This document shows positions 3,529 to 60,040 of a stretch of DNA of 64,000 nucleotides, one piece after another. Origin of the DNA: an uncultured Acetatifactor sp. Its GTDB lineage: Bacteria > Bacillota > Clostridia > Lachnospirales > Lachnospiraceae. The notes under the pieces were generated by a model that made no database searches, was not told the DNA's origin, and saw only the letters and a list, made by a program, of their open reading frames with translations. The position numbers were made by a program, and so were the translations under genes. The stretch covers positions 1 through 64,000 of the forward strand of contig CANPWA010000008.1 of NCBI GenBank assembly GCA_947581865.1. Reading direction: 5' to 3'. The stretch's first letter is position 1. Every line of letters starts with the position of its first letter.

Positions 3529-4320
3529 TTACTCCTCACCCCCTGCTTCCTCATCGCCGTTTGACCTGTCTTTAGGCGCAAGGAAGGATTTCAGTTTCTC
3601 CTCGATCACCCTGGGATTTTCACCTGCCTGAATGGAGAGCAGACCTTCTATCATTATTTCCTTTAACAACATCTCAACGGCATTGTCCGCCTTCAGCTTG
3701 TTGGATACGGGAATGGAGATCCAGTTCGCCAGAAGGGAGCCGTAGAGGGTGGTGATCAGAGCCACTGCCATGGAAGGACCGATCGCACCGGCATCCTGCA
3801 TGTTGTTAAGCATGTCCACCAGACCCACCAGCGTACCGATCATACCCCAGGCAGGACCCATGGATGCCAGGGTATCCCAGAAACCGATCAGTTTCCTGTG
3901 TCTGCCCTCAATGCTCACCAGCTCCGTCTCCATGATCCCACGGACCAGATCAGGGTCTGTACCGTCCACGATCAGAAGGATCCCTTTCTTCAAAAACGGT
4001 TCGTCCAGATCGGAAGCCGCCTCCTCCAATGACAAAAGACCCTCTTTGCGGGCTACATTGGAAAGCTCTATTATTTTTTTGATCATCTCCGACATATCAA
4101 GAGTTGGCACCTTAAAAATCAAGGTGAAACTTTTCAGTCCCGCAATAAAATCCTGTATGCTGAAAGAACACAGGGTGGATCCCAGTGCGCCTCCAAAAGT
4201 GATGATCGCCGACGCCGGATCCAGATAATTTCCTGCGCCGCCAAGCCCTGCGCTGGAGATAATACCGAATGCCAGCATTGCAAAACCGAAGATGATGCCG
4301 ATTAACGATGCTATATCCAC
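3529..4320 (-). CDS. motA: Flagellar stator protein MotA
   Basis: MotA is the four-helix stator subunit that couples ion flow to force on FliG. The 263 residues match the family length. Helices lie at the N-terminus (about 2-50) and around residues 150-205, with the conserved WGMIGTLVGLV and GSLLANWISIP stretches of the ExbB/MotA proton-channel fold between them and a charged cytoplasmic loop. It lies between flbD and motB. The tail is rich in acidic residues (NGDEEAGGEE), a minor peculiarity. Confidence 0.96.
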   Translation of the reverse strand: MDIASLIGIIFGFAMLAFGIISSAGLGGAGNYLDPASAIITFGGALGSTLCSFSIQDFIAGLKSFTLIFKVPTLDMSEMIKKIIELSNVARKEGLLSLEEAASDLDEPFLKKGILLIVDGTDPDLVRGIMETELVSIEGRHRKLIGFWDTLASMGPAWGMIGTLVGLVDMLNNMQDAGAIGPSMAVALITTLYGSLLANWISIPVSNKLKADNAVEMLLKEIMIEGLLSIQAGENPRVIEEKLKSFLAPKDRSNGDEEAGGEE

Positions 4321-4354
4321 TTCAACTCACCTAAACATTCCGCAATTTATTAAA

Positions 4355-4540
4355 TTATTCTGCAAGAATATCCTTTCGATACAATTTTACTAAATTTTTT
4401 ATATCTTGTCTACTTTCTTTTACAATTATTTTTTTTCCAGTGGTCAAAGTCAGCACCGTATCGGGTGTTTCTTCCACTATTTCCAGCAAATGCGGGTTCA
4501 CGAGAATTTTTGTCCCGTTCAGTCTGGTCACTTCGATCAT
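4355..4540 (-). CDS. flbD: FlbD-like small flagellar protein
   Basis: This is a small protein of the FlbD/SwrD family, found between flgE and motA in Firmicutes and linked in Bacillus to swarming motor power. I start it at the ATG at 4540 (MIEVTRLNGTKILVNP), which has GGGGAGGGG just upstream and gives 61 residues, the family length. A longer in-frame version would begin upstream but adds residues foreign to the family. The conserved core (RLNGTK, NP, E-x2-PDT, tTGKKIIVKES) is complete. Confidence 0.9.
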   Translation of the reverse strand: MIEVTRLNGTKILVNPHLLEIVEETPDTVLTLTTGKKIIVKESRQDIKNLVKLYRKDILAE

Positions 4541-4569
4541 ACTACCCCTCCCCGCCCGAAAGGACGGAA

Positions 4570-4592
4570 GGGACGGAATAATTTCCCGTCCC
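4570..4592 (-). other. Intercistronic hairpin between flgE and flbD
   Basis: GGGACGG (4570-4576) pairs with CCGTCCC (4586-4592) around a 9-base A/T-rich loop. No T run follows on the minus strand, so it is not a standard intrinsic terminator. It may be an mRNA processing or stability element that sets the abundant hook protein apart from the motor genes. Confidence 0.4.
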
Positions 4593-4626
4593 TCTTTCAT
4601 CGTCACAGTCTATTTATTTCCAGATC

Positions 4627-6357: not shown

Positions 6358-6386
6358 AATACATGTTCCTCCTGTTTCCCGGAGCC

Positions 6387-6412
6387 GCGCCCCCTCCGTC
6401 GTTCGGGGGCGC
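6387..6412 (-). other. GC-rich intercistronic hairpin upstream of flgE
   Basis: GCGCCCCC (6387-6394) pairs perfectly with GGGGGCGC (6405-6412) around a 10-base loop, in the 87-bp gap just upstream of flgE. There is no following T tract on the minus strand. It is best read as an mRNA structure that could protect or separate the flgE message. Confidence 0.45.
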
Positions 6413-6444
6413 CCTGGTATGTAAACTTCCTTGTGAGGTCCGGC

Positions 6445-6858
6445 TTACATGATTACTGCTCCGTTGATATTTGTGAATACATTGTCACTGGTCTCCGTGC
6501 CGTCCATGGCTGTTATCACTGTCCTGTTGGGCACATTCACGATGAATGCGTACTCATCCACAATGACCAGCGAGTCCTTGATTCCTTTCTGACCCGCCCT
6601 GCGGACTCCGTCGTTCAGTCTCTCCATCTGACCCTCGGTGAGTTCGATCCCTCTGTCCGAAAGCCTCCCGGCCGCATGCTTGGAGAATTTCAGTCCCCGG
6701 CTCTGTACCGCTGTCTGCAGCGTCCTCTGCATGAGTACATCCTGGAACGATACCCCCGTCTGCTTCGTCTGTCCGTCCGCCTGCTTTGACTGGCTTAAAT
6801 ATCTGTCCGTCAGCTGTTCGATAGAAAGGAAGTTCTGATTCTGAATATCCATATTCAT
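6445..6858 (-). CDS. TIGR02530-type flagellar operon protein
   Basis: This is a small protein of the family annotated as flagellar operon protein TIGR02530, conserved between flgD and flgE in Clostridia and Bacilli; its biochemical role is not settled. The 137 residues include the typical GLKFSKHAAGRLSDRGIEL block and the C-terminal VPNRTVITAMDG strand pair. It sits 24 bp after flgD. The position suggests a hook-assembly accessory role, which is inference. Confidence 0.85.
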   Translation of the reverse strand: MNMDIQNQNFLSIEQLTDRYLSQSKQADGQTKQTGVSFQDVLMQRTLQTAVQSRGLKFSKHAAGRLSDRGIELTEGQMERLNDGVRRAGQKGIKDSLVIVDEYAFIVNVPNRTVITAMDGTETSDNVFTNINGAVIM

Positions 6859-6881
6859 TCCCTCCCGTCATTCTTCATATC

Positions 6882-32344: not shown

Positions 32345-32373
32345 ATTATAACCCTATATTCCCGTCTTGTCAA
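32345..32373 (-). promoter_or_regulatory. Consensus SigA promoter of the type IV pilus operon
   Basis: The minus strand has a perfect TTGACA (32368-32373), a 17-base spacer and a perfect TATAAT (32345-32350). The start site would be near 32338, leaving a leader of about 43 bases before pilB. That is too short for a cyclic di-GMP riboswitch. Such a strong promoter suggests steady expression or an unseen repressor. Confidence 0.88.
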
Positions 32374-46295: not shown

Positions 46296-48908
46296 CTATT
46301 GTATCACCGTCATGCTCAGACGGTTTCTGCCATCCTTCCTCTCATAGAAAACCTCATCCATCAACTCCCGTACCATGTAAATTCCCAGACCGCCCGGGCT
46401 TCTTTCCTCCAGCGGCTTCTTCAGGTCGGGGCGCGGGAACTGCAGAGGATCAAACTCTATACCGTCATCCTCCAGGGTCAGGATATACCGTTTTTTGCCC
46501 GCATCCGTCCCAGGTCCCTCCTCCCCGGCACATTCCTTTCGGCATTCGACAGTGAAGTTTTGCGCCCTGCTGTAGCGGCAGATATTGGAATAGACTTCAT
46601 CCAGAGCAATGAGAAATCTGTGAACCGCCCTTTGGGAAATCCCCTGCCCTTCAAATGATCGTTCCACAAATTTCTGTATTGTTCCGCTTTGGGTTCCGGA
46701 TACTGCCCCGGTAAAAATCCTGTTCCACCCCCGGTAGCAGAGCACAAGCATCGTAATATCGTCAAACTGCCCGGCAGCCCCCTGAAATCCCCGCAGATCG
46801 TTTTGTACGGTCAGCGCCAGCCTGTCCGGGTCCGTTTCCCTGCAGGAGCCCAGCAGCGCCTTAAGGCGGGCGTCGCCATAAAAATCTCCCCTGCAGTCAT
46901 TGGCCTCGGTGACTCCGTCCGTATACAGAAAAAGCAGATCCCCTTCCCTCATTTTGATGCAATGCTGCCTGTAGGACATACCGCCCATTCCCGCCAGCAC
47001 AAACCCGTCCCTGCTGTCTATGTATTCATATCCCTTTTGGGCATTTCCGATCAGGGGCGGATTGTGACCGGCATTTACATAAGTAAGCAGCCCTGTGGAA
47101 AGCGTCAGTACCCCGATCCATACGGTTACGAACATCCCGTTTTTATTGCAGGCACAGAGCCTCTCATTTACCGCCTCCACAGCCTCCGACAGCGTGCCGG
47201 CTTCCCGGATCCGGCTTTGAAGCAGCGTCTTTGCCACCACCATGAACAGTGCCGCGGGTACACCCTTCCCTGAGACGTCCGCGATCAGAATGGCCAGATG
47301 ATCCTCATCCGTGAGAAAAAAATCATAAAAATCCCCGCCCACTTCTTTCGCCGGCGTCATGGACGCATAGAGGTCAAATTCTCTTCTCTCCCGCAGAATC
47401 TCCTCATAATCCGGCAGCATATCCGCCTGTATTTTGGAGGCAAGGGACAACTCCGTGTGGACCCGCTCCTTTTCCGCGGTTATGGCTGCCAGATTCTCTA
47501 TGTAAGTTTTTAACTGTACCGTCATATCGTGAAAGGCATGTCCCAGATCTTCCACCTCATCCCCGGTGTCAATGCCGATGGCAATGCAGACGGGCGTATC
47601 GAGGTTTCCCCCGTCTATGCGCTTCACTTCCCTGGTCAGCCTGCGGATGGGCTCCGTCAGTCTGTTGGAAAAAAGTATGCCGACTGCCCCGATAAGCACC
47701 GCCGCTGCCGACATGATACCGAGAAACAGAAAGATGGTCCTGCGGATGGCGACATCCTGTTTGTCCAAAATACCCTCCGTCATGGCAAGGATCCTATTCT
47801 GATTATCCCTGACCGGCGCGATGACCTCCTCCACATCCATGACCGTCACAAAACTCCAATGCAGCCCCGGAAGAGGCGCATAGGCAAGATAGACCTCTCT
47901 TCCGTCCATCTTCAGCCGCACCAGGCTGCTGCCTCCCGCCACCATATCCTCTGCAGCCGTCGCAAGCGGCTTATTTTCGCTTTTTCTTAAGTCCTCATGG
48001 GAGAATTGCCCCGCGGTCTCTCCCGTTTGGGCGCTGGATACCAGGATCTGCCCCTTGTCATTGACCAAAAAGGCATACCCGCTCTGCCCTATGGCAGTGT
48101 CCAGCACCGTCTGCTTTACCGTGTCAAGATAGGAACCGATCCCTGCCACGGCAACGATCTCTCCGTCTATATAGACCGCCCTGGAACATACAATGCACTC
48201 CTTTCCCTCATGGATATCCCTGATCACATCCGTGTAGACGCACTCTCCGGGGCTTGCCAGTTTTGCCCTCTGATACCATTGTCTTGTGTCTGCCTCATAA
48301 TAATCCGGCAGATCCTGTCCCCCGGAATATTTGCTGTAGGCAATGTAATCCGCCTGAAGCATCCAGCCGCTCTGTGTGGCCAGATAGGTGGAGGAGATCA
48401 TATCGTTATTGGCATTGTACTGTACCAGAAGTTCCTGCAGATTTCCCAGCCTGTAGAGCTCCTCATACTGTTTAGGGGAAGGGTATTTTAACCGCGCTGA
48501 CCGCAAAAGCTGTGCCGCCAGTTCTGTGCTTCCCCTCTGGGGCAGGGCAGTCTCCCTGTCCGGATATTTTTCGGGATTTCGGTAAATATCCTCCGCCGCC
48601 CGCGCGATTCCGTTTACATCGGCAATCACTGTGTTAAATTTTTCCTCGATATATGCCGCCTTTTGGGCTGCCACGATCAAAAGCTGCCCGCCAGCCAGTT
48701 CCTCCAGCGCCGCCTCCCCATCTTCCGCCGCCATCTGTCCGAGCATTTTACTGCTCTCCTCGGACAAAGCGCGCATGGAATAGAGGCTCCACAAGCTGAC
48801 TGTCCCTGAGACAGACAATGCAGTCAGCACCATGGTCAAAAGAAGGATGATGACCTTCCTGCGGATAGAACCCTGTCTTTTTTTACTGCCCCTTCCATGA
48901 TCTGTCAT
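46296..48908 (-). CDS. Sensor phosphatase: dCache, HAMP, SpoIIE-type PP2C and HATPase domains
   Basis: The 870-residue membrane protein has a first helix (about 17-42), an extracellular dCache-like sensor (about 60-370), a second helix (about 390-415), HAMP (about 416-470), a SpoIIE-type PP2C phosphatase (about 500-700: GGDFYDFF, ADVSGKGVPAALF, LYTDGVTEA, FDDITMLVL) and a C-terminal RsbW-like kinase domain (N-box EVYSNICRYS, G2 box GGLGIYMVRELMD). It joins both opposing activities of a partner-switch in one protein. The STAS protein at 50071-50370 is the obvious substrate. No cognate sigma factor is adjacent. Confidence 0.88.
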   Translation of the reverse strand: MTDHGRGSKKRQGSIRRKVIILLLTMVLTALSVSGTVSLWSLYSMRALSEESSKMLGQMAAEDGEAALEELAGGQLLIVAAQKAAYIEEKFNTVIADVNGIARAAEDIYRNPEKYPDRETALPQRGSTELAAQLLRSARLKYPSPKQYEELYRLGNLQELLVQYNANNDMISSTYLATQSGWMLQADYIAYSKYSGGQDLPDYYEADTRQWYQRAKLASPGECVYTDVIRDIHEGKECIVCSRAVYIDGEIVAVAGIGSYLDTVKQTVLDTAIGQSGYAFLVNDKGQILVSSAQTGETAGQFSHEDLRKSENKPLATAAEDMVAGGSSLVRLKMDGREVYLAYAPLPGLHWSFVTVMDVEEVIAPVRDNQNRILAMTEGILDKQDVAIRRTIFLFLGIMSAAAVLIGAVGILFSNRLTEPIRRLTREVKRIDGGNLDTPVCIAIGIDTGDEVEDLGHAFHDMTVQLKTYIENLAAITAEKERVHTELSLASKIQADMLPDYEEILRERREFDLYASMTPAKEVGGDFYDFFLTDEDHLAILIADVSGKGVPAALFMVVAKTLLQSRIREAGTLSEAVEAVNERLCACNKNGMFVTVWIGVLTLSTGLLTYVNAGHNPPLIGNAQKGYEYIDSRDGFVLAGMGGMSYRQHCIKMREGDLLFLYTDGVTEANDCRGDFYGDARLKALLGSCRETDPDRLALTVQNDLRGFQGAAGQFDDITMLVLCYRGWNRIFTGAVSGTQSGTIQKFVERSFEGQGISQRAVHRFLIALDEVYSNICRYSRAQNFTVECRKECAGEEGPGTDAGKKRYILTLEDDGIEFDPLQFPRPDLKKPLEERSPGGLGIYMVRELMDEVFYERKDGRNRLSMTVIQ

Positions 48909-48994: not shown

Positions 48995-50074
48995 TTACGT
49001 TCTTCCTTCATTCCTTTCTTCTTCCTTTCCATTGTTCTTTTGGGGGATCAGACGCCCCACATAATCTGCCATCTCCGCGAACTCCCCGCTGAGAAAATAA
49101 TCCTCAAAATAAATTTTCACTTCACCCGGATGATGCAGCACCATATATTCCCTCTCGCTGCACAGGGGCTTTAGCCCGGTAAAAAAATACCCCAATCTAC
49201 AGAGAGCTTTGTATGCCCATACCGCGTTGGCGTCGCTGATATTCAGAAACAGATTTGCTGTCTGTTTTCCCCTAAGCGGAAATCTCTCCTGCAGTGCGGC
49301 AACCTGTTCTGTCAGGTCCGCCCCTGTCAGATCCACACTGATCTCCAGACTTGCCTGCCTCTCATCCTGTCTGTATGTCAGGATACTGGTATCCGGCAAA
49401 TGTTTGGGATCTCCGCACTGTCTTTCCATGCAGACAGCCGCCCCCAGCCGCCTGTAAATCCCGCTGCAGAATTCCCGGTGTTCTTCCGGCACATAAATTC
49501 TTCCTGCATCCCGTTTTCCAATCGCCCGTATCTGGATTCCCTGGGAATGCTTCTTATTGCGCTTGTTTTGATATGAATGAACGATCTGTTCCACATCAAA
49601 CACATTCAGAACAAAGCCGGCAGCCCTCATTTCCAGCCGGTACAATAGTCTCTGGGTGATGTCATGGAAAAGCACCGGAAGACAGTACGCCGCAGAATAA
49701 TTCCGGGAAAGCACGATCTCCATCCCGTATTGAAAAAAAGGCATGGCTAACCCATATCTCCGGTACTTTTTACGAAAAATCTGGGAGGCGATCTCACACA
49801 TATTTTCTCTTGGGGCAAATTCCTTTAGCAGCATCATCCCGGCGATCTCCCCGGGCGTGGTCTGCGCCACCAGAAAAGTCATGCGCCCGCTTTGTGCCTC
49901 CCTCTTCAAGAATTCGGGCAGATAAAAACTTCTTTTAAAATAGGTATCACCGTATTCGTCCCGGATGCAGGCGAGCATTCCTTCCTCATCTCCGGGTCTG
50001 TATTCCCGAAGCGTCACGGTCAGTCCTCTCCCCTGGGAATTTGTGAGATGGACCGTCCGAGCCCGCCCGCTCAT
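48995..50074 (-). CDS. GNAT-like acetyltransferase-fold protein
   Basis: The 359-residue protein has an N-terminal GNAT-like domain (about 15-150; LREYRPGDEEGMLACIRDEY, then FRKKYRRYGLAMPFF in the acetyl-CoA-binding region). A second region of about 180 residues resembles a degenerate GNAT repeat. The last 15 residues are strongly Lys/Glu-rich. The ATG overlaps the stop of the STAS gene (ATGA), so the two are translationally coupled. It belongs with the partner-switch genes; the substrate is unknown. Confidence 0.7.
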   Translation of the reverse strand: MSGRARTVHLTNSQGRGLTVTLREYRPGDEEGMLACIRDEYGDTYFKRSFYLPEFLKREAQSGRMTFLVAQTTPGEIAGMMLLKEFAPRENMCEIASQIFRKKYRRYGLAMPFFQYGMEIVLSRNYSAAYCLPVLFHDITQRLLYRLEMRAAGFVLNVFDVEQIVHSYQNKRNKKHSQGIQIRAIGKRDAGRIYVPEEHREFCSGIYRRLGAAVCMERQCGDPKHLPDTSILTYRQDERQASLEISVDLTGADLTEQVAALQERFPLRGKQTANLFLNISDANAVWAYKALCRLGYFFTGLKPLCSEREYMVLHHPGEVKIYFEDYFLSGEFAEMADYVGRLIPQKNNGKEEERNEGRT

Positions 50075-50370
50075 TGAATGTCCAGGATTCTATGGAATCC
50101 TGTAATGAGAAAGACCTCCTTGACTTCGTCGTTCACATGATAGACGGGCATTGTGCCCCGCTGCCCGTGCATTTTTTTTGATGCCGCCAGCAGCACCCTC
50201 AGCCCGGCAGAAGATACAAACTCCAACAGTTCCATATCTATCTGCAGTTCTTTTACCCCCTCGGTCTCCGTATCCACTACCTCCTGCAGCATGGGAGCAG
50301 TGTCGGTGTCCAGCCTGCCCTTCAGCTTCAGGATGAGCGTCTCTCCCTGTTTCTTTTTTTCTATATCCAT
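50071..50370 (-). CDS. STAS-domain anti-anti-sigma factor
   Basis: The 99-residue single-domain STAS protein is of the SpoIIAA/RsbV type. The core is complete: LKLKGRLDTDTAPML, and LEFVSSAGLRVLLAASK with the Ser that is phosphorylated in this family. It would be the substrate of the phosphatase/kinase at 46296-48908 and would sequester an anti-sigma or HATPase partner. Coupled to the GNAT-like gene. Confidence 0.9.
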   Translation of the reverse strand: MDIEKKKQGETLILKLKGRLDTDTAPMLQEVVDTETEGVKELQIDMELLEFVSSAGLRVLLAASKKMHGQRGTMPVYHVNDEVKEVFLITGFHRILDIQ

Positions 50371-50406
50371 ATTTCGCTCCTCTCCTCCTGCACATTCAGC
50401 CCATGA

Positions 50407-50679
50407 TCATAAGACCTCCCATGGAGGTTTTCTCTCAAACCCCACATGATAGGTCACTTTCTCCATCGTCAGTTCATGTTCCCCCACCAGATACCGTCCA
50501 ATGCTCACATCTTTTCCGATAATGATCCCTTTGGGATAGTCGTTGAGACATTTGTTCAACAATGCCGCCTGTTCTTCTTTGGACTGTTCCGAGAGCGGAT
50601 TGTTGGGATTTATACTTCCCAGCGTGACCAGCTTGATATAATGAATATCCGAAAGCGCCGTTTTTTCCTCTCTGTTCAT
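50407..50679 (-). CDS. Small protein of unknown function (90 aa)
   Basis: I do not recognise this family. The protein is soluble, with no signal or membrane segment. It has an acidic N-terminal half (SEQSKEEQAALLNKCLND) and a conserved-looking beta-rich C-terminal part (KGIIIGKDVSIGRYLVGEHE) ending YHVGFERKPPWEVL. It has a clear GGAGGAAGAAG site before the ATG. It lies between the DUF2589 gene and the STAS gene, in the same direction, and is probably co-transcribed. Confidence 0.65.
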   Translation of the reverse strand: MNREEKTALSDIHYIKLVTLGSINPNNPLSEQSKEEQAALLNKCLNDYPKGIIIGKDVSIGRYLVGEHELTMEKVTYHVGFERKPPWEVL

Positions 50680-50717
50680 ACTTCTTCCTCCGGTATGGAT
50701 GTTACTATATGGGCGGA

Positions 50718-50748
50718 GCCGTCCGGACCACTGTCAGGTCCGGATGGC
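50718..50748 (-). other. Strong intercistronic hairpin between the DUF2589 gene and the 90-aa gene
   Basis: GCCGTCCGGACC (50718-50729) pairs with GGTCCGGATGGC (50737-50748) with one wobble and a 7-base loop. It is followed by TCCGCCC rather than a T run on the minus strand. It may split the operon into two expression levels by processing or partial termination. Confidence 0.55.
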
Positions 50749-50762
50749 ACCGTCACCCCCGC

Positions 50763-51959
50763 TTAATTGGGCTGACTCTGATCGGTCTTGGCAGGTTTGG
50801 CCCTGCCTGCCACCGCGTCGCTGTACTCCGCCCTCTTATCAAACAACTCCTTCTCGATCTGACTCACATTGCGCTGACAGTCCACAGCATTCTTCTGCGC
50901 CGCAAGGATTGCCGTATAATAAGTTTCAGCGGATTCATAAGGGGTCATATCTCCCTCTTTGCTCAGGGCTTTGAGCGCGAACATTTCTGAGATACCGCTC
51001 TGCTCCCCGCCGCTGTCCGCAATGATCTTGATATAATCGCCCACCTGACCGGAAAATGCTCCCCAGCGCTGATTCACTTCATCCATCGTCCGGCTGTAAG
51101 TAAGCTGCTTCTTTTCCAGATCTTCTTTTTTCTCCAGAGCCGCTTTTTTCTCGGCTTCCGAATTTGCATTTTCAATCTCTTTGTCAACCTCCTCAGGCTG
51201 AAGGCTGTTGAGCAGCCCGGTGATAGTCCCCTGATAAATATTTCTCTGGGAATCACCCAGTTTTTTGAGTTGTGTAATGCTATTGCTGAGCCCATCCTGT
51301 GCAGCCGAAAGTCTTTTTTCGATCTGGCTGATATCCTGCCGCAGCGCTTTGAGATTTTCCGCCTTGATCCTCGCCTGTTCGGACAGATTCTGACCGTTTC
51401 CGTCCTTCAGACTGCTGCCCACCAGCATGGGTGCAACATTGGCTGCCATCATATCGAGAACGCGGGCAAGCCCCTCAGGGGTGCCGTGATTGGTTGCCCG
51501 GACATCCACATGGTACTTGGCAGAATTGTCGGAACTTCGGGTATTGGAACTGTGGGCGCTGACACTTCCCGTCACGCTGACCTTTATGATCCCCAGATTC
51601 AGTGTCCCGGAAAGGGTGGCTCCCATATCCATGGACTGTTCCGATTTTTCACTCTGCTTTACCTCCATGTCAAAGAGGATATTGACCTCATCCACCTGCA
51701 GATTCGGAATGGGGACAATGGCCAGCATGGGCACATCCACCTTCATCTCATCCAGATTACTGGTACCGTCCTCATTCATGCTGCGCTTCTGATAGGCAAA
51801 TGCCACTGTGCGCACCGATCCGTCTCTGTTAAAGCCGACTTTGTTGATAAAGTCGGCAGTAGAGTTTGCAAGCTGGGAACTCGCGTCCGCTGCCGCCGAT
51901 AAGGGGCCGCCGATAAGCTGATTCATATCTAACCCTGCAAATTGTTCTGCGATCGCCAT
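50763..51959 (-). CDS. DUF2589-family protein (398 aa)
   Basis: This is a soluble protein with no signal peptide. Residues about 60-160 match the DUF2589 pattern: VPMLAIVPIPNLQVDEVNI followed by LFDMEVK, a polar Ser-rich segment and a beta strand block. The C-terminal half (about 200-350) is long coiled coil. It is paralogous to the protein at 52233-53102, where the same block reads VPLLSIVPVANLTVEKAQI. DUF2589 has no function I know. The start MAIAEQFAGLDMNQLIGG has GGTAGAT-like weak upstream support. Confidence 0.8.
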   Translation of the reverse strand: MAIAEQFAGLDMNQLIGGPLSAAADASSQLANSTADFINKVGFNRDGSVRTVAFAYQKRSMNEDGTSNLDEMKVDVPMLAIVPIPNLQVDEVNILFDMEVKQSEKSEQSMDMGATLSGTLNLGIIKVSVTGSVSAHSSNTRSSDNSAKYHVDVRATNHGTPEGLARVLDMMAANVAPMLVGSSLKDGNGQNLSEQARIKAENLKALRQDISQIEKRLSAAQDGLSNSITQLKKLGDSQRNIYQGTITGLLNSLQPEEVDKEIENANSEAEKKAALEKKEDLEKKQLTYSRTMDEVNQRWGAFSGQVGDYIKIIADSGGEQSGISEMFALKALSKEGDMTPYESAETYYTAILAAQKNAVDCQRNVSQIEKELFDKRAEYSDAVAGRAKPAKTDQSQPN

Positions 51960-51964
51960 AATAT

Positions 51965-52240
51965 CTACCTTCTTTCTTTTTTAGCTTCTCTTTGGAATAA
52001 GTGTAGAAAAAACCTTACCATCATCCCCCGTCTTCTGCGCGATCGATGCACCGGAACAGGCTCATAAGCTGTGATGATGACCTTCTCCACCCACAGGGCT
52101 TGAGAAGACAGATCCTGTAGATCCATTATCATACGGAAATTCAGCTCGGGAAGCAGGCTGTCCAGATACTGCTGCAGGAAAGAACATTCTGTTTCACGCC
52201 CGGTGGTATCCTCCGGTTCTTTTTTCCCCCGGTTACTCAT
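51965..52240 (-). CDS. Small basic-tailed protein of unknown function (91 aa)
   Basis: The ATG at 52240 (MSNRGKKEPEDTTG) overlaps the end of the upstream DUF2589 gene, and AAAAGG lies just before it. The middle (ECSFLQQYLDSLLPELN, then an amphipathic helix) is followed by a very basic tail (RSRRRRGMMVRFF, REAKKERR). No family is recognised. Tight packing between two DUF2589 genes suggests a partner of one of them. Confidence 0.65.
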   Translation of the reverse strand: MSNRGKKEPEDTTGRETECSFLQQYLDSLLPELNFRMIMDLQDLSSQALWVEKVIITAYEPVPVHRSRRRRGMMVRFFLHLFQREAKKERR

Positions 52241-53102
52241 AATCCTTTTCCAGCCCATAGCGGATCTCCATATTCATAATGCGCTCCTGATACTCCATGA
52301 TACGATTGATGATATTGGACTGAGCCATCAGATATTTGTCCTTGTCAAATTCATAGGTATCCGCCTCAAAAGCATCTTTGCTTATCTGGTGCAGCCTTTC
52401 CTGCTCCGCCATCATATCGGATATCTTCTGATGAAGCGTCGTAAGTCTGCTGATTTTTGCCTTCAGTTTCTTGACCTCCGAAAGCGTCTTTTTCTGTTCA
52501 TCGGAGCCTAAATCCCCGCTGACTGCGACAGGTCTTGAATCCAGCTTCTTTGCCACCTGATTTGCACTCAGCGCGTCGATCAGGCGCAGGATGCCCTCCG
52601 TTGCCGGTATGGACGCCACCTGCAGCTTATAGGATACCTTCGGCAGAAAGTCACTCTCCCGCTGGGAGGGCGCACAGATCCGCGCATCGATCCGGGTCTC
52701 TCCTGTCTCCTCATTGTTCACCGCCTTAATCTCGGTGGAAAACTCGATCTGCGCCTTTTCCACAGTTAAATTTGCCACAGGCACAATGGACAACAAAGGC
52801 ACCTGGACCTGCAGACTGTCCACACTGTATCCGTCCTCCGCCTCGGGTCTGAGCTGGTCATAGGCTATATTGATATTGTTTAAATGGATCGTCTCTTCCT
52901 GCCCGTTCTGCTTGCTGGTTCCCATACTCTTGACGGCTTCCACGATCTGCGCCCGGAGCCTGTGCCCGGACAGTGCCAGAGCATGCAGGGGCGCGTAGAC
53001 CAGATCGTTCAACGGTATAAAGTCATTGTCCATGATCCCGCCGTTTCCCCTTGCCTCATCCGCCTCAGGCGCATCCGTCGTATTGTCTTTTCTGTAAGGC
53101 AT
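52233..53102 (-). CDS. DUF2589-family protein (289 aa)
   Basis: This is a second DUF2589 paralog, soluble. Residues about 20-50 (FIPLNDLVYAPLHALA) open the domain, and the core at about 95-130 reads VPLLSIVPVANLTVEKAQI followed by EFSTEIK. A C-terminal coiled coil covers about 205-285 (KKLKAKISRLTTLHQKISDM). It differs from its neighbour in the N-terminal extension and in lacking the Ser-rich insert. It lies 37 bp after the endolysin-like gene. Confidence 0.8.
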   Translation of the reverse strand: MPYRKDNTTDAPEADEARGNGGIMDNDFIPLNDLVYAPLHALALSGHRLRAQIVEAVKSMGTSKQNGQEETIHLNNINIAYDQLRPEAEDGYSVDSLQVQVPLLSIVPVANLTVEKAQIEFSTEIKAVNNEETGETRIDARICAPSQRESDFLPKVSYKLQVASIPATEGILRLIDALSANQVAKKLDSRPVAVSGDLGSDEQKKTLSEVKKLKAKISRLTTLHQKISDMMAEQERLHQISKDAFEADTYEFDKDKYLMAQSNIINRIMEYQERIMNMEIRYGLEKDYE

Positions 53103-53139
53103 CCTGCTTTCCTCCTCATCTGCTGTCTACTTCAGAAAT

Positions 53140-54216
53140 TCAGCTCAAAAAAAGCGCTCTTTCCTCTTCCCTTCTTCTGACCAGCCCCGCCAGCACTTTT
53201 CCGCCGCCCTTATTATAGGCAGGGATCTTGTCCGCCACAGTCGCTGCGTCTCTTCCGGATACCAGCTTCTGAAGATTCCCTTTTCCGCAGTTGTAGCAAA
53301 AACTTGTGAGGGCATCAAACTGGTTCTGCGTCAGGGGAAACGTGATCAGCCCCTGCTTCACACAGTCATTCACATAACCGCCGTACTTCTTTATATCTTC
53401 CTTCAGGAGGGCTTTCGCCGCCTCCTCGGAGGGCAGCGTCTGTCCGGGCTGCACCCCTGCGGTGTGCCCGTAACCGATCGTCCATACTCCCGCAGGGCAT
53501 TTGTACGCCTCCAGACGGCAGCCCTCATACTTTGCGATCAGATCCACTCCCCTGTCGGAAACGGTCATCTCTCCCGCCGTGGCAGGCGGAGGCGCCTGCT
53601 CCACTGTCCGGGGCTGCACCGGGTCTTGTGTCTGTCCGGGCGTGCCGGCAGTCTTATTCATGGTATCCGCAACTGCCCTGCGGAAATCGTCCATGGTATA
53701 ATTCATATGTAACTGCCGAAACAGATGGTCCGGATCCGCGTGCCCCGACGCCACACCTCTGTCATGCCCCTCCTTATGACTGATGATCACACCGTCCTCG
53801 AGAGGATTTAATCCAAACTGTCCGCACAGGAAAGCAAACAGCTCCACTGCGGATCGCAATGTGCGCCGGACTGCCTCCCGGGCCTTTTCCTCATCACTGC
53901 AGGTAATGTTTGCTCCCCCCGTATACCGGATGCAGGAGGGCTCACACATTTCCACGCCGATGTGCGTCTTGTTTGCCTGCCCGCCGCAATGCCAGGCCTT
54001 ATAATCCCAGGGAAGGATCTGATATACCCTGCCCGTCTCAGCATCCACAAAGCCATGTACACAAACCTTTGCCCCTGCGCTGTTAAAGCGCTTTACAAAA
54101 ACCTCCGCCGAGGGCTGGGGACATCCCACGCTGTGCAGTACCAGACCCTTCACCGCAATTTTTTTCCCCGCTTTGTAACAGGGATTTTCCGTCGCAAAAC
54201 TTTGTACCAACTCCAT
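53140..54216 (-). CDS. Endolysin-like fusion: PGRP-type amidase plus GH24 lysozyme
   Basis: The ATG at 54216 (MELVQSFATENPC) has AGGAGGAGAG nine bases upstream, giving 358 residues. The N-terminal part (about 20-195) is an Amidase_2/PGRP domain (LVLHSVGCPQPSA, DYKAWHCGGQANKTHIGVEM, SHKEGHDRG). A Pro/Gln-rich linker (about 200-225) leads to a GH24 lysozyme (about 228-358) with IAKYEGCRLEAY, CPAGVWTIGYGHTAG and FNALTSFCYNCG-like core. Two cell-wall cuts are thus in one protein. There is no signal peptide, and no holin is nearby. It resembles phage endolysins but is not in a prophage. Confidence 0.85.
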   Translation of the reverse strand: MELVQSFATENPCYKAGKKIAVKGLVLHSVGCPQPSAEVFVKRFNSAGAKVCVHGFVDAETGRVYQILPWDYKAWHCGGQANKTHIGVEMCEPSCIRYTGGANITCSDEEKAREAVRRTLRSAVELFAFLCGQFGLNPLEDGVIISHKEGHDRGVASGHADPDHLFRQLHMNYTMDDFRRAVADTMNKTAGTPGQTQDPVQPRTVEQAPPPATAGEMTVSDRGVDLIAKYEGCRLEAYKCPAGVWTIGYGHTAGVQPGQTLPSEEAAKALLKEDIKKYGGYVNDCVKQGLITFPLTQNQFDALTSFCYNCGKGNLQKLVSGRDAATVADKIPAYNKGGGKVLAGLVRRREEERALFLS

Positions 54217-54327
54217 ATCCGTTTTCTCTCCTCCTATAATATGATTGTAGGGTTTCCGCACCCGACAGCCGATTGGGACTTAATCCCCTTACTGTTTAAG
54301 CTGTATGATGAGGTATTTTCCCATCTC

Positions 54328-55116
54328 CTAGGGCTTTGCTGCATTGTCTGCCGGCAGGAAATTTGTCAGGACACCGTTCAGGATCTTATCCAATTCACCC
54401 TCCAGTGTCCCTGCCCAGCTGCGCACAGCATCCGATCCCGCCTGCCCGTCCTCCTGCATCAAAACGGCAGTTGCCAACAGCTCGCACAGCACCGGGAAAT
54501 ACTCTCCCGCATCTTCTTTCAGACATCTCTGCAGGTATTCCCATTGTTCGTTACAGCTCTCTACCCACATATCTTTTTTTCCTTCATCTATAAATGATTT
54601 TATGAAACTGAACCAATCCTCCTGAATCTGGTTGTCTTTGGCAATCGTATCCCAAGTATATTTCTCGGGTAACTGCTCCGCCAGAAAATGAGAGGACTCA
54701 TGGATCAAAATGGGCAAAAAATACCTCGCATTCCGTTCCAGAATCAACTTCGAGTTTATCAGGATCACGACCCGGGTGGGAACTTCTTCTACATTCAACG
54801 ACCAGGATAAGGTATACTGTCCACCATAAGTATTCCCCGACTTCCACATTGCTTCTGCCGCCTTAACCAATTCGCTGTCCTGCGTTTTCGTCATCCATTC
54901 ATGTATCCCGTCGGGATTTACCTCAAGCACAACAATGTCTTTTCCCTTCTTCGCAAGACGTTCCGTCCAGCCCTTAAATTTTTCCTGCAGCCGGTCAGGC
55001 ACCTTTGGGTCAGAAAGAGCGGAGATCAACCTCTGATCCACCCCATAAAAATGATAATCCAAACCCAGAATGGTTTGGGTGCAGCACACCGGCTGGATTT
55101 CTTTTACCGTACACAT
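54328..55116 (-). CDS. Unknown protein with an HExxH zinc-metallopeptidase motif
   Basis: I do not recognise this 262-residue family. It contains HESSHF (H139, E140, H143), the zinc-binding signature of zincins, within LPILIHESSHFLAEQLPE. Candidate third ligands (E205, E212) lie 62-69 residues further on. It has no signal peptide. The N-terminus is Cys-rich (CTVKEIQPVCC) and the C-terminal part is helical. AAGGAGGAG lies upstream of the ATG. It is the first gene downstream of the invertible promoter element and the start of the co-directional run. Confidence 0.68.
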   Translation of the reverse strand: MCTVKEIQPVCCTQTILGLDYHFYGVDQRLISALSDPKVPDRLQEKFKGWTERLAKKGKDIVVLEVNPDGIHEWMTKTQDSELVKAAEAMWKSGNTYGGQYTLSWSLNVEEVPTRVVILINSKLILERNARYFLPILIHESSHFLAEQLPEKYTWDTIAKDNQIQEDWFSFIKSFIDEGKKDMWVESCNEQWEYLQRCLKEDAGEYFPVLCELLATAVLMQEDGQAGSDAVRSWAGTLEGELDKILNGVLTNFLPADNAAKP

Positions 55117-55170
55117 ATTCTCCTCCTTGTCTGTGTTTCTTAGTGTTTTTGTTACTGCTTGTTAATGTCC

Positions 55171-55182
55171 TTAATATAGCAT
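55171..55182 (-). other. Three-codon leader ORF (MLY-stop) downstream of the switch
   Basis: ATG CTA TAT TAA is preceded by GGGAGGTG at normal spacing and lies between the left inverted repeat and the metallopeptidase-like gene. It would be at the 5' end of the transcript when the switch is inverted. It could just be a chance SD-ATG, or a leader peptide that tunes downstream translation. Confidence 0.35.
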
Positions 55183-55280
55183 TTTCACACCTCCCTTCCT
55201 GCTGTATACATAATACGATATTAAGTTAACCTCCTGCTGCTTTATCTTGGAATATTTTTTTACCAAAGAAAAGACAGGAC

Positions 55281-55301
55281 AAAAAAAGCAGCGCTTTTTT
55301 T
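55281..55301. terminator. Symmetrical A/T-rich hairpin inside the invertible element
   Basis: AAAAAAAGC (55281-55289) pairs with GCTTTTTTT (55293-55301) with a 3-base loop, giving T runs on both strands. It could terminate transcripts entering from the recombinase gene or from either side, insulating the switch. The stem has only two G-C pairs. Confidence 0.4.
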
Positions 55302-55361
55302 TGCAGCCTGCTCTGTGATTTCCATATATTTTTTTGTTAACTGTTTTACTTAAAAAAAGGG

Positions 55362-55390
55362 TTGACAATGCCTTCATAATATCGTATTAT
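55362..55390 (+). promoter_or_regulatory. Consensus SigA promoter, plus strand, within the invertible element
   Basis: TTGACA (55362-55367), a 17-base spacer and TATTAT (55385-55390) form a near-perfect promoter. As drawn it reads right, starting near 55397 and running antisense through the recombinase gene (55438-56259), which is on the minus strand. No plus-strand gene follows it. Confidence 0.85.
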
Positions 55391-55437
55391 GTTAATTTCT
55401 TTGCGTGCAGAGCAAATTCCTTTTACCGCTCCTTCTC

Positions 55438-56259
55438 TCACAGTTTGATCCTGTTGATTTTTCTGCGTTTTTCCTCCGCCGTCGTAACGGTATAAATTCT
55501 TGTGGTCTCCAGACTCGCATGTCCCAAAATATCCGCCAGTTCAAACAGATTGGAATACTGGCGCATGTAGGTGACTGCAAACAGGTGACGGAAACTATGG
55601 GGATGTACCCTCTCCTTTGGTATCCCGATACACTCCGCCATCTTCACCAGCATTTTATAGACTGCCACCCTGCTGATAGGCTTTTGATCCTTTCCGCGAA
55701 AAATGATCCCCTTTTCAATTCTCTGACAGGCACAATAATTTCTTATGTCCGCAACCAATTTATCCGGGAGATAAATCTCCCTGTTCTTTCCTTTGCTGCG
55801 GATGATGTAACTGCCCTGCTCCAAAGACTCCACGGTCAAGCCTGCCAGTTCACTTACGCGGATACCGGTCAGGGCCAGCGTCCGCATGATACAGTAATAC
55901 TTTTCTCTGCCATTTTCCTTTGCCCATAAAAGCAGCCTTTCATATTCTCCGACGCTGAGGACATTATCCGGGCATTGTCTCCTCTGCTGTCGGAGAGCTT
56001 TTACGACACAATCTGCATGACCCGTATACTGCAGATACCGGTTCAGCGCTGCCAGATACAGATTTATGGTTGACAGCCGGGTATATTTTTCCTGTAAGCC
56101 TTTTTTGTAGGCAAGCGCTGCCGCCTTCGTGAGTTCCCTCTTCCCCAAAAAGTCCAAAAACAATTCCGCCTGTTTCAGGTATATCTGTATGGTAGCATCC
56201 GCCAGTTCTTCCTGTTGCAGATATTGTGCATATTGCTCCAGTTTATTCTTATGTCCCAT
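55438..56259 (-). CDS. Tyrosine recombinase (phage-integrase family)
   Basis: The 273 residues are complete, with a SAM-like N-terminal core-binding domain (about 1-95) and a catalytic domain. All catalytic residues are visible: R134 (TGIRVSELAGL), K158 region (RSKGKNREI), H221 and R224 (HPHSFRH), H247 (LGHASLETT) and Y256 (TRIYT). AAGGAGG precedes the ATG at 56259. It is similar in size to other small site-specific recombinases and sits 46 bp from the inverted repeats. I infer it is the invertase of the neighbouring element. Confidence 0.9.
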   Translation of the reverse strand: MGHKNKLEQYAQYLQQEELADATIQIYLKQAELFLDFLGKRELTKAAALAYKKGLQEKYTRLSTINLYLAALNRYLQYTGHADCVVKALRQQRRQCPDNVLSVGEYERLLLWAKENGREKYYCIMRTLALTGIRVSELAGLTVESLEQGSYIIRSKGKNREIYLPDKLVADIRNYCACQRIEKGIIFRGKDQKPISRVAVYKMLVKMAECIGIPKERVHPHSFRHLFAVTYMRQYSNLFELADILGHASLETTRIYTVTTAEEKRRKINRIKL

Positions 56260-56321
56260 CCCTTTTACCTCCTTTCGCAGTAAAAGGAATTGCCTGCTCC
56301 CGCATTGATTGCCCGATGATC

Positions 56322-56342
56322 ATCCGGTTCTGCGGACCGGAT
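56322..56342 (-). other. Hairpin between sigK and the recombinase gene
   Basis: ATCCGGT and ACCGGAT pair around a 7-base loop just after the sigK stop. There is no T tract, so it is a weak candidate for partial termination or processing of a sigK-recombinase transcript. Confidence 0.35.
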
Positions 56343-56344
56343 CG

Positions 56345-56995
56345 TCACACCGGTCTGAGAGTATCCAGATGAAATCTCTCCCTGAGTTTTTGCAATGCTC
56401 TTTTCTCGATTCTGGATACATAACTTCTGGAAATACCCAGAGCGTTTCCGATCTCGCTCTGGGTGACGGATTTATGCCCGTTCAGCCCGTATCGCAATAT
56501 GAGGATTTCCCGTTCCCTGTCCGTCAGACATTCGTCCAGATAAGCAAACAGCCTGATGATATTATTCTGCATCTCCATGGAGTCTACCGTGTCCGGCTGC
56601 TGCTGTTCGATAATATCCACCAGACAGATTTCATTTCCCTCTTTATCCTGTCCGATGGGTTCAAAGAGGGAGACTTCCCTCGAGGTTTTTTTCTTTGCGC
56701 GGAGCAGCATCAGAAGTTCATTATCTATACAGCGGCAGGCATACGTTGCAAGTCTGCCCTTGCCTGCGTCAAAGGTCTCCACTGCTTTGATCAGTCCGAT
56801 ACAGCCGATGGAGATCAGATCCTCCATATCCTCATCCACATTTTGATATTTTTTTGCCACATGTGCCACCAGCCTCAGATTGCGCTCGATCAGAATGTCC
56901 TTCGCCTTTTTTGCCTCTTCCCTGCTGCCCTCCCTGAGCAGACGTACATAATAGGCTTCTTCTCCCGAGGTCAGGGGTTTTTGAAAGGTTTGCAC
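56345..56995 (-). CDS. sigK: Late mother-cell sigma factor SigK
   Basis: The 216-residue SigK-type sigma factor has region 2 (AKDILIERNLRLVAHVAKKY, EDLISIGCIGLIKA) and region 4 with REREILILRYGLNG and SEIGNALGISRSYVSRIEKR. The intermediate block SLFEPIGQDKEGNEICLVDI is typical of SigE/SigK. The start is GTG at 56995 with GGAGG seven bases before. The N-terminus is short (MQTFQKPLTSGEEAYY) with no clear pro-sequence, as in many Clostridia. It is not interrupted by a skin-like element. Confidence 0.9.
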   Translation of the reverse strand: MQTFQKPLTSGEEAYYVRLLREGSREEAKKAKDILIERNLRLVAHVAKKYQNVDEDMEDLISIGCIGLIKAVETFDAGKGRLATYACRCIDNELLMLLRAKKKTSREVSLFEPIGQDKEGNEICLVDIIEQQQPDTVDSMEMQNNIIRLFAYLDECLTDREREILILRYGLNGHKSVTQSEIGNALGISRSYVSRIEKRALQKLRERFHLDTLRPV

Positions 56996-57026
56996 CGATG
57001 TGCCTCCACGGACGTTTCCTCACAAA

Positions 57027-57056
57027 TATTCTATGTGAAGTCCGCCAAAGCAGTGC
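57027..57056 (-). promoter_or_regulatory. SigK/SigE-like promoter of sigK
   Basis: The minus strand has GCAC (57053-57056), 17 bases and CATAGAATA (57027-57035), which fits the SigK -10 pattern CATAnnnTA and partly SigE (CATAcaaT). It lies 31 bp before the GTG, suggesting mother-cell transcription and possible autoregulation. Confidence 0.6.
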
Positions 57057-57087
57057 CTGGCACACAAAATTAAATCAAGATTAGATA

Positions 57088-58236
57088 TTATACAAACTTA
57101 GCCATCACATAATTGGCAAGATCCACTCCCCGTTTCGTCAGAAAGATCCTGCCGTCCTGCACTGCCAACAGCCCCTCCCGGCAGCTTCCCTCTATCGCAT
57201 CCCTGTAAATCTCCTCTGCATCCGCACCGTATGTATCTTGAAACACGGAAAGGCTCACCCCATCCGCCATCCGCAACCCCAGAAACATCGTCTCAGCCAT
57301 CTGCTCCTGCGCCGTCAGTTCTTCTCTGTCCTGTCTGCATCCCAAAGGATCGCTTAGATAACCCTGCAGGGACTCCCCGTTGCGGAACCTGACATTGTCC
57401 AACAGAGAAGCCGCTCCGATCCCGAAGCCCAGATAATCCGTGCGCTGCCAGTAACCGCAGTTATGTCTGCATCGATACCCGGGTCTGGCATAATTAGAGA
57501 TCTCGTAATGCTCATATCCTGCCTCCCTGAGGATCCGGGCGGTCCTCCAGTACATATCCCGCTCCAGATCCTCATCCACAGGTTCCAACATCCCCTTTTC
57601 GTACCGTTCCCAGAAAACCGTACCCTCTTCCAGGATCAGGCTGTAGACGGAGAGATGCTCCGGCGCGGGGGACAGGGAGAGCACCGTGCGCAGATTTTTC
57701 TCCCATTCCTCCAGTGTCTGCCCGGGCAAAGCGCTTATCAGATCCACGTTAATATTGTCAAAACCGGCATCGCGCGCCATGCGGCAGGTATCCTCAAACC
57801 GGGAATAGTCATGGATCCTGCCCAGAAACGCCAGCTCTCTGTCATCCGCCGACTGACATCCGATGCTCAGCCGGTTGATCCCCGCCTCCCGGTAATCTTT
57901 TAAGTCTCTCTCCGTCACGGTACCCGGATTGATCTCCACAGTGATCTCCGCATCCGCCGCCAGATCAAAACGGCGGCGCACCAGATCGAGCACACGACAA
58001 AGCCACACAGTGTCCACCACGGAAGGGGTTCCGCCCCCGATAAAGACACTGCGCACGACACGATCCCGCGCCATGCCGCTTCCCGCCTCCGTCTCCCGCA
58101 AAAGCGCCTCCATATACGCGTTCTGCACCTGCTCACCGGCAGGTGCAGAAAGAAAGTCACAATAATTACACTTTTGTCTGCAAAAGGGAATGTGGAAATA
58201 CAATTCCAGATCCCGCTCTCTCCTACTTCCTGTCAT
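57088..58236 (-). CDS. hemW: Radical SAM heme chaperone HemW
   Basis: HemW is a heme chaperone related to coproporphyrinogen oxidase HemN. The radical-SAM cluster motif is C19xxxC23xxC26 ([12 protein letters not shown]), followed by GGGTPS and the family's C-terminal HemN domain. 382 residues is a normal length. The ATG lies within the last codons of lepA (14-base overlap), a common lepA-hemW arrangement in Firmicutes. Confidence 0.93.
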
Positions 58237-60040
58237 CCAGCTTTAAAACGCTCATAAACGCCTTCTGGGGAATCTCCACATTTCCGATCTGGCGCATACG
58301 TTTCTTCCCCTCCTTCTGCTTCTCCAAAAGCTTTTTCTTGCGGGTGATGTCGCCGCCGTAACACTTTGCCAGCACATCCTTCCTCATCGCCTTGACGGTC
58401 TCCCGGGCGATGACCTTGCCCCCCACAGCCGCCTGAATGGGGATCTCGAACAGATGTCTGGGAATCTCATCCTTGAGTTTCTCGCACATCTTCCTTCCCC
58501 TCTCGTAAGCGGAATCCGCGTGGACGATAAAGCTCAGCGCATCCACCTCCTCGCGGTTGATCAGAATATCCAGCTTCACCAGCCTGGATTCCTCATAGCC
58601 CTTGATATCGTAATCGAAAGAGGCATATCCCCTGGAACGGGATTTCAGCGCGTCAAAGAAGTCATAAATGATCTCATTGAGGGGAAGTTCATACTTTAAC
58701 AGCGCCCTTGTCCCCTCGATATATTCCATGCCCAGATACCGCCCTCTGCGCTCCTGGCACAATTCCATGATAGAGCCAATGAACTCGCTGGTCACCATGA
58801 TCTCCGCGTTTACAATCGGCTCCTCCATATACTCGATCTCGGAGGGATCCGGCAGATTGGAGGGATTGGTCAGTTCGATCACTTCCCCGTTTGTCTTGTG
58901 TACTTTGTAAACGACACCGGGGGCCGTGGTCACCAGATCCAGATTATACTCCCTCTCCAGTCTCTCCTGGATGATCTCCAGATGCAGCAATCCCAGAAAC
59001 CCGCACCGGAAACCGAAGCCCAGAGCCACGGAGGTCTCCGGCTCATAATTTAAAGAAGCGTCATTGAGCTGAAGCTTTTCCAGCGCGTCCCTCAGATCGG
59101 GATACCTGGCGCCGTCCGCAGGATACATGCCGCAGTACACCATGGACTGTACTTTCTTGTAGCCCGGAAGCGGCTCCCTGCAGGGATTGTCATTGTCCGT
59201 CACCGTGTCTCCCACGGCGGTATCCTTCACATTCTTGATGGAGGCGGTGATATATCCCACCATACCCGCAGAGAGCTCGTCGCAGGGAATAAATCTTCCC
59301 GCCCCGAAATATCCCACTTCCACTACTTCCTCCACCGCGCCGGTCGCCATCATGCGGATGGAAGTTCCTTTTTTTACCTTTCCCTCCATGATACGGCAAA
59401 AGATGATGACGCCCTTATAAGAGTCATAGAGGGAGTCAAAGATCAGCGCCTGCAGCGGATTGTCCGGGCTGCCTCCCGGCGCGGGGATCTTTGCCACGAT
59501 CTGTTCTAAGACCTCCTCCACATTCACACCGTTCTTCGCGGAGATCAACGGCGCGTCCTGCGCCTCGATCCCGATCACATCTTCAATCTCTTCGATGACA
59601 CGCTGAGGGTCCGCGCTGGGCAGATCGATCTTGTTGATCACCGGGAACACATCCAGATCATGGTCCAGGGCGAGATACACATTCGCCAGGGTCTGCGCCT
59701 CGATGCCCTGGGCGGCGTCCACCACCAGGATCGCGCCGTCACAGGCGGCGAGAGACCTGCTGACCTCATAGTTAAAGTCCACATGCCCGGGGGTATCGAT
59801 CAGATTAAAAATATACTCTTCCCCGTTCTTCGCCTTATAGACCGTCCGCACAGCCTGCGCCTTGATGGTGATCCCGCGCTCCCTCTCCAAATCCATATTG
59901 TCAAGTACCTGGGCCTGCATCTCCCTGCTGGTCAACAGCCCCGTCATCTCAATGATCCGGTCCGCAAGCGTGGATTTGCCGTGGTCGATATGCGCCACAA
60001 TACAGAAATTCCGGATCTTGCTCTGGTCAATGGAAGCCAT
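58223..60040 (-). CDS. lepA: Elongation factor 4 (LepA)
   Basis: LepA is a ribosomal GTPase that promotes back-translocation or aids assembly. G-motifs are intact: [14 protein letters not shown] (G1), DTPGHVDF (G3) and [10 protein letters not shown] (G4). The 605 residues have the LepA-specific C-terminal domain with [20 protein letters not shown] and ending [17 protein letters not shown]. Strong synteny with spoIIP and hemW. Confidence 0.97.

Follow-up and report, generated by a model that had tools for sequence, protein, structure and literature searches.

A predicted invertible SigA-type promoter, sequenced in the OFF orientation, between a tyrosine recombinase gene and a lysin/DUF2589 operon of an uncultured Acetatifactor

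The invertases of the E. coli fimS element are FimB and FimE. In the part of PMC7446863 that deals with it, fimS is a short promoter-bearing element which is inverted to switch the adjacent operon, and the same part describes the RecV switches of C. difficile, a member of the Clostridia, as recombinase-inverted elements located upstream of operons (154 bp for the flagellar switch). According to passages of PMC8748976, the invertible promoters of gut Bacteroidales are flanked by repeats, lie immediately downstream of the invertase gene and drive the downstream genes. Invertible promoters, or invertons, are called less common in Firmicutes/Clostridia than in Bacteroidales in passages of PMC8748976 and PMC11892184. 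The locus analyzed here shares these traits: a short repeat-flanked and promoter-bearing element, similar in size to the C. difficile flagellar switch, is found immediately downstream of a recombinase gene and upstream of an operon in a 64-kb stretch of DNA from an uncultured Acetatifactor sp. (the window). With good confidence, we read this locus as an invertible SigA-type promoter switch which was sequenced in its OFF state.

On the minus strand, a SigK-family gene (56345-56995) is followed by the recombinase gene (55438-56259), by the element and then by an operon extending from 55116 to 46296. The features of the predicted switch are the following:
55438..56259, minus strand: tyrosine recombinase, 273 aa, Phage_integrase, predicted invertase
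55208..55392, no strand: predicted invertible element, 185 bp including 16-bp perfect arms, of an architecture common to 24 elements
55209..55225, no strand: distal (operon-side) putative recombination site, CATAATA-CGA-TATTAAG
55375..55391, no strand: proximal (recombinase-side) putative recombination site, CATAATA-TCG-TATTATG
55362..55390, plus strand: SigA-type promoter, TTGACA-17-TATTAT, aimed as sequenced at the 3' end of the recombinase gene

The perfect 16-bp inverted repeat around 153 bp that had been claimed in the initial annotation was recovered: its two arms, 55208-55223 and 55377-55392, pair at all 16 positions (100%) and are separated by 153 nt. It is the sole perfect 16-bp inverted repeat with a gap of 20-500 bp in the window, and such a repeat was present in 1 of 200 Markov-1 copies of the window (500-bp blocks) and in 0 of 20000 local 330-bp copies. 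The promoter is composed of TTGACA (55362-55367), a 17-nt spacer and TATTAT (55385-55390), with 11 of the 12 consensus bases. Its -10 is located within the right arm, in agreement with the annotated consensus SigA promoter straddling the right repeat, and repeat and promoter thus have bases in common. On the plus strand of the window, no other exact TTGACA is followed by a -10 of at least 5/6 at 16-18 nt, and one further exact TTGACA promoter of that kind was found on the minus strand at 32373. The inverted repeats therefore surround a promoter which points out of the element.

The repeat can be described as two copies of a 17-bp near-dyad site of the CATAATA-CGA-TATTATG type, a near-dyad with central bases being the typical look of tyrosine-recombinase core sites. 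In each site, the -10 corresponds to the outer half when this is read outward, the end of the spacer is made up of the inner half and the centre, and the -35 is situated inside the element; the outer half of the distal site is the -10 of the predicted ON state (TATTAT, minus strand 55215-55210). Since the -10 is the outer half of the site, inversion would shift the -35 to the operon-side -10, and by this geometry the promoter would be placed before the adjacent operon; since both -10s are TATTAT, the rebuilt promoter would be identical. By inspection, the -35 and spacer would meet the mirror -10 at 55215-55210, so that the earlier proposal of a promoter restored on the minus strand with a start near 55203 holds. 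In the window as sequenced, the operon side lacks a -35 (AGCAGG at that position, 1/6 matches) and the promoter faces the 3' end of the recombinase gene, which suggests that the operon on the opposite side is OFF. Folding of the 153-nt interior was no better than that of shuffles (z -0.65), and an Rfam search of 50000-58500 gave 0 matches. Other copies of the switch were looked for in the same genome with the 11-bp core and discarded, as 73 sites with at most one mismatch were obtained against 61 for the reversed pattern. Among the matches listed, the nearest other opposite-strand core pair is located on contig C20 of this genome, at 1683-1693 (+) and 3570-3580 (-); its cores are 1.9 kb apart, one of them is mismatched, and the pair may be due to chance.

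The recombinase had been annotated as possessing all catalytic residues. R134, K156, H221, R224, H247 and Y256, which we take to be the catalytic positions of a tyrosine recombinase, are all present, and none of them varies among 18 aligned recombinases, that of the window among them. The element is thus accompanied by a site-specific recombinase with presumably intact catalytic residues. Three observations concern the surroundings of this gene. The SigK-family gene directly upstream (56345-56995, minus strand) encodes a sporulation sigma factor, and the neighbours at this place differ in other species. A 28-nt, 75% inverted repeat brackets the recombinase gene itself (55402-55429 and 56277-56304), its 56277-56304 arm being in the leader region. 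At locus L081 (genome G049), a 1236-aa protein with an eCIS_core domain is encoded just upstream of the recombinase (3156-6866).

In the mechanism that we propose, the recombinase would bind the two near-dyad sites, the asymmetric 3-bp centre CGA setting the direction, and strand exchange at these sites would invert 55208-55392. The moving part would be the -35 with the spacer, each -10 remaining as the fixed outer half of its site. In the sequenced OFF state, the full promoter would be directed toward the 3' end of the recombinase gene and the operon would possess a -10 and no -35. Inversion would bring the -35 up to the operon-side -10, and a transcript could start near 55203 and run through 55116, perhaps to 46296. 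From the sequence we infer the action of the recombinase on these sites and the position of the crossover, as well as the existence of an ON form, the promoter strength and the extent of the operon.

The conservation of this architecture was analyzed with relatives of the recombinase collected from 138 genus genomes (an orthologue above 430 bits in 14, the window's own genome among them), from a family sample of 397 (4 genomes besides its own at E<=1e-85), from an order sample of 392 (8 at E<=1e-80, three already known) and from named genome contigs (8 loci). The inverted site pair was defined in 24 elements, the window's included: 22 recombinase-adjacent elements, the remote L153, and L264. 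Twenty-three of them lie beside recombinases 41-100% identical to the window's (itself included) and one lies before a remote operon. Left out of this set were L037 and L042 (no site), L041 (one site), L158 (contig ending soon after the recombinase), L110 (repeat upstream only), L265, L267 and L268 (no such pair called) and L266 (a different 21-bp repeat), and the loci of a sister family were treated apart. This operon is preceded by 20 of the 24 elements; the contigs of L012 and L039 end before the DUF2589 genes, and L080, L108, L109 and L264 precede other or unexamined genes.

The centres of the two sites are identical to each other in all 24 elements, being CGA in 22 and CTA in both sites of L107 and L264; such matched and covarying centres are what strand exchange requires. 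The recombinase-side -35 (for L153, that of the arm away from the operon) is better than the other one in 24/24. It has at least 5/6 matches in 23 elements (4 in L080), 17 bp from the -10 and on one side only, and the other arm reaches 5/6 in none. The downstream-side -10 remains in register despite the missing -35, and it is better than the other -10 in 17 elements, equal in 5 and worse in 2 (L012, L156); the corresponding sign test (p=0.0007) is indicative only, since some of the loci form close groups (L009/L010/L085/L086 and L038-L040) and do not count independently. In L009, L010, L011, L080, L014, L085, L086 and L108, the downstream-side outer half alone departs to TATTATG, the three other halves keeping TATTTTG. 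In L035, L039 and L040, three halves are TATTATG and the downstream-side outer half is TATAATG; L036 follows this scheme bar one inner change, and L038 has TATAATG also in the inner distal half. These departures follow a pattern that would be expected from selection on an ON promoter.

A check for relatives keeping the repeats without their inverted geometry had been suggested with the initial annotation. The geometry is maintained in the 24 elements, the exceptions being L041 with one site and L037, which has neither site nor operon. At L041, the single site is found 3' of the recombinase, no TTGACA-type promoter was called before the operon, and the locus may be a natural loss variant. A search for ON copies in the genus with the promoter pattern (2 mismatches) gave matches in 99 of the 138 genomes, above the reversed control, as ordinary promoters would; among the matches listed, 10 are exact, and all 10 are beside the recombinase. 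In viral contigs, 17 loci with relatives of the recombinase (30-40% identity) were found, none with this repeat and one with any perfect repeat of at least 13 nt near the gene, of unrelated sequence. The viral contigs also gave 51 pattern hits, none with the recombinase and 3 with a one-mismatch partner.

The genes following the element, which constitute the predicted target, are listed below:
54328..55116, minus strand: first gene of the operon, 262 aa, no family match, contains HESSH
53140..54261, minus strand: amidase_2 + phage_lysozyme cell-wall hydrolase
52233..53102, minus strand: DUF2589 protein (a)
51965..52258, minus strand: small operon protein, 97 aa, no family match
50763..51959, minus strand: DUF2589 protein (b)
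50407..50679, minus strand: conserved 90-aa operon protein
50071..50370, minus strand: STAS-domain protein
48995..50074, minus strand: 359-aa protein kept in the operon, no family match
46296..48908, minus strand: dCache-HAMP-SpoIIE phosphatase-HATPase sensor protein

The HESSH motif of the 262-aa protein looks zinc-protease-like by eye, and this protein is a near-orphan, for which a search by words among 5.8 billion proteins gave a single further relative. Downstream of the lysin and DUF2589 genes, and in the same direction, STAS, SpoIIE and HATPase form a signalling set. For the 90-aa protein, a confident fold was predicted and no match at E<=0.001 was obtained in two fold libraries. The model of DUF2589b is poor (pLDDT 67), and its profile gave nothing better than E 0.12 against PDB sequences. 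PADLOC returned weak matches alone for DUF2589b (best E 0.00014) and DUF2589a (0.0039). DUF2589b was met in 1 phage record and 5 plasmid records, all partial matches below 60% identity. The names borne by homologous proteins include Lachnospiraceae bacterium and Acetatifactor sp.

Related operons contain variable genes, which stand at the head of the operon, further down, or inserted between the amidase part and the lysozyme part. Among them are DUF6765 (L073 and L081), a jacalin-like lectin (L145), an HNH match (L159) and an endonuclease/exonuclease/phosphatase match (L144); several inserted genes gave no family match. At L036 (8821-9879), L040 (8804-9826) and L145 (6964-7527, minus strand), unrelated genes, one of them that of the jacalin-like lectin, separate the amidase and lysozyme halves, which are then distinct ORFs. 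Related switches with other cargo precede an Exo_endo_phos gene (L160) or, by some kilobases, a C39-ABC exporter (L191). At L266, the different 21-bp inverted repeat is found 3' of the recombinase with TTGACA facing the recombinase, and a gene then seems to recur whose peptide, read by eye, may be a double-glycine bacteriocin leader. As a whole, this mix of genes suggests a role in competition or lysis.

The association of the recombinase with this operon was examined across the genus. DUF2589b was detected at E<=1e-80 in 14/14 genomes with the orthologue against 12/124 without it (Fisher p=1.8e-12, uncorrected for phylogeny), a line which was drawn after the list had been seen; at the search's own 1e-10, the counts are 14/14 and 17/124. 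The operon follows the element in 13 of the 14 genomes with the orthologue (in G092, the first gene alone precedes the contig end). In genome G015, contig C10 carries the recombinase and one site pair, and contig C24 carries the operon, again with a site pair (L153). In this genome the operon's element has the -35 TTGACA and the recombinase's element has TTGATT, so that the promoter follows the operon; this one case speaks for a promoter retained for the sake of the operon and for an enzyme able to work on distant sites. Within 500 bp before the presumed first gene, a site pair was found in 0/9 operons without the orthologue (a single one-mismatch core in L144); this inspection covered ten operons, these nine and L153, with L146, L150 and L152 outside it, and the true start may lie further up in some, for example L142. 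The distances of the recombinases and of the DUF2589 proteins correlate over 16 loci (Mantel r 0.65 and 0.75), a correlation that common descent of the species alone could explain.

In 5 of the 12 operons of the genus that lack the recombinase, a LytTR-domain gene comes first, recognized by Pfam in L141, L148 and L151 and by identity to L148 in L149 (94%) and L143 (49%). L142 seems by eye to be LytTR-headed too, and the remaining recombinase-less operons either look different or are truncated where their contig stops. A search of the ORFs near 17 recombinase loci gave no LytTR homologue (E<=0.01); in G015, one weak LytTR match is present about 7.5 kb upstream of the operon. Comparison of LytTR-headed and switch-headed operons suggests that, in a good part of the genus, this operon is headed by either a regulator gene or an invertible promoter.

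Support for inversion itself comes from a sister family, ∼35-39% identical to the window's recombinase, in which 15 of 19 distinct loci have an inverted repeat 3' of the gene, with arms of 15-31 bp and other sequences. Between genomes G135 (L193) and G033 (L194), the flanks are colinear at 84% and 93% and a segment of about 460 bp 3' of the recombinase aligns at 88% on the opposite strand; because this segment is inverted between colinear flanks, it is very probable that the wider family includes an enzyme that inverts the element next to the 3' end of its gene. In L193, the segment is followed by the gene of a very large predicted protein; the part of it that was searched gave weak beta-helix and Ig-like matches. 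At 14 of the 15 sister loci, checked closer, no strong edge promoter of the window's kind was called, so that this family provides a precedent for inversion and not for the promoter logic described here.

Taken together, the conserved site pair and -35, the covarying centres, the operon-side -10 left without a -35 and the inversion seen in the sister family make a recombinase-driven invertible promoter much the likeliest reading, in line with the initial annotation. What speaks against it is that all 24 assembled elements, the window's locus and clade included, are OFF (ON in 0/24), that L041 has one site and L037 none, and that the operon-side -10 is the worse one in L012 and L156. Since the majority form is the one that tends to end up in an assembly, OFF may be the prevailing state, and would presumably be that of most cells. 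At even odds, a uniform OFF orientation is unlikely to arise by chance, even with few independent groups.

This uniformity would also suit a self-limiting variant, which refines the main reading without replacing it and to which we give a modest, clearly minor likelihood. In this variant, the OFF promoter makes an RNA antisense to the recombinase gene which curbs inversion; in the ON state this RNA stops, the recombinase rises and the switch is reset, OFF being the default. It is favoured by the 24/24 OFF elements and by the distance of the site core from the end of the recombinase tblastn match, 11-120 bp in 20 of 22 loci (234 and 429 bp in the two others). Terminator-like stem-loops were called inside 11/22 elements in the direction of the recombinase, in 10/22 in the other direction and in 8 in both, about 1 being expected for each; over the stretch that runs from the promoter to about 150 nt inside the recombinase gene, a terminator was called in 4/22, which also counts for this variant. 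The figures of 11, 10 and 4 of 22 were obtained with criteria loosened after a first, stricter scan (6, 4 and 2 of 22), which missed stems running into the T tract. The stem-loops in the direction of the recombinase speak against the main reading, but the window's own element has no terminator-like stem-loop inside. Against the variant, the operon element of G015 is also OFF although it is on another contig, so that antisense RNA made from it could not reach the recombinase gene in cis, and the element next to the recombinase in that genome has the weaker -35 (TTGATT); antisense RNA is therefore not needed in general.

A switch that is locked or decayed is improbable. Inherited with its recombinase, it would no longer be inverted in this species, and the operon would be permanently off or read through from upstream. 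The lack of an ON form among the 24 elements would fit such a decay, and L041 indicates that elements can be lost, but in the window the catalytic residues are intact, the centres are identical, the 16-bp arms are perfect, and both -35 and -10 are preserved; the correlated recombinase and DUF2589 distances (16 loci, Mantel r 0.65 and 0.75) also speak against it, although common descent could by itself produce them. That the repeats serve only the integration or excision of a mobile element, with an incidental promoter match, is very improbable: the recombinase does belong to the phage-integrase superfamily and the upstream neighbours of the module do differ among many species, but the sites are inverted and not direct in 24/24, a -35 of at least 5/6 stands 17 bp from the -10 on one side only in 23/24, and the one perfect repeat of at least 13 nt near a gene among the 17 viral loci is of unrelated sequence.

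Returning to the recombinase-driven promoter, we tentatively propose a wider role, which we hold to be less likely than not. A half-promoter module biased to OFF and widespread in Lachnospiraceae may silence an attack-like operon (a cell-wall hydrolase, the DUF2589 pair and exchangeable effector-like genes) in most cells and fire it in few, and may alternate in evolution with the LytTR head, stochastic control being swapped for regulated control. One operon with either head would offer a natural comparison of regulated and random control, and the uniform OFF orientation makes the bias of the switch directly testable. The locus would be a clean Clostridia-type case, for which recombination site, half-promoter logic and target are defined in many species, and its target is built around DUF2589, a term found in a single paper of the literature searched. 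Its main interest lies in the conserved half-promoter design, the uniform orientation, the exchange with LytTR and the uncharacterised cargo.

In the titles and abstract starts of the literature searched, no description of this switch or operon was found. Compared by description with fimS, the present locus has one adjacent recombinase, a -10 fixed outside the presumed crossover, a -35 that moves, and other cargo. The Bacteroidales promoters, as given in passages of PMC8748976, consist of a -33 TTTG and a -7 TANNTTTGY and that of the window of TTGACA/TATTAT; their cargo in those passages is resistance genes in capsule/glycan-derived loci, whereas lysin and DUF2589 genes are found here, in Lachnospiraceae-type genomes. 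The parallel with Clostridioides switches drawn in the initial annotation stands for an inverted element beside an operon and is otherwise loose, because the C. difficile flagellar switch, by the description in part of PMC7446863, is located in a 5' UTR, has no functional promoter of its own and acts through Rho, whereas here a predicted promoter with 11/12 consensus bases overlaps the repeat. PsrA, a streptococcal tyrosine-type DNA invertase (PMC11709252, in part; S. dysgalactiae record), is 34.9% identical over 92% of the window's recombinase. Pneumococcal PsrA inverts coding hsdS segments, according to the same part of PMC11709252, whereas the present element is promoter-bearing and intergenic, its overlapping ORFs all being of at most 80 aa and none supported, which does not point to an exchange of coding segments. 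In the main text of an inverton survey of a defined gut community (PMC11892184), the word stem 'lachnospir' is absent, and the passages considered do not mention this cargo. In those passages, invertases are generally placed beyond the reach of the inverton's promoter, an arrangement that is also that of the locus described here.
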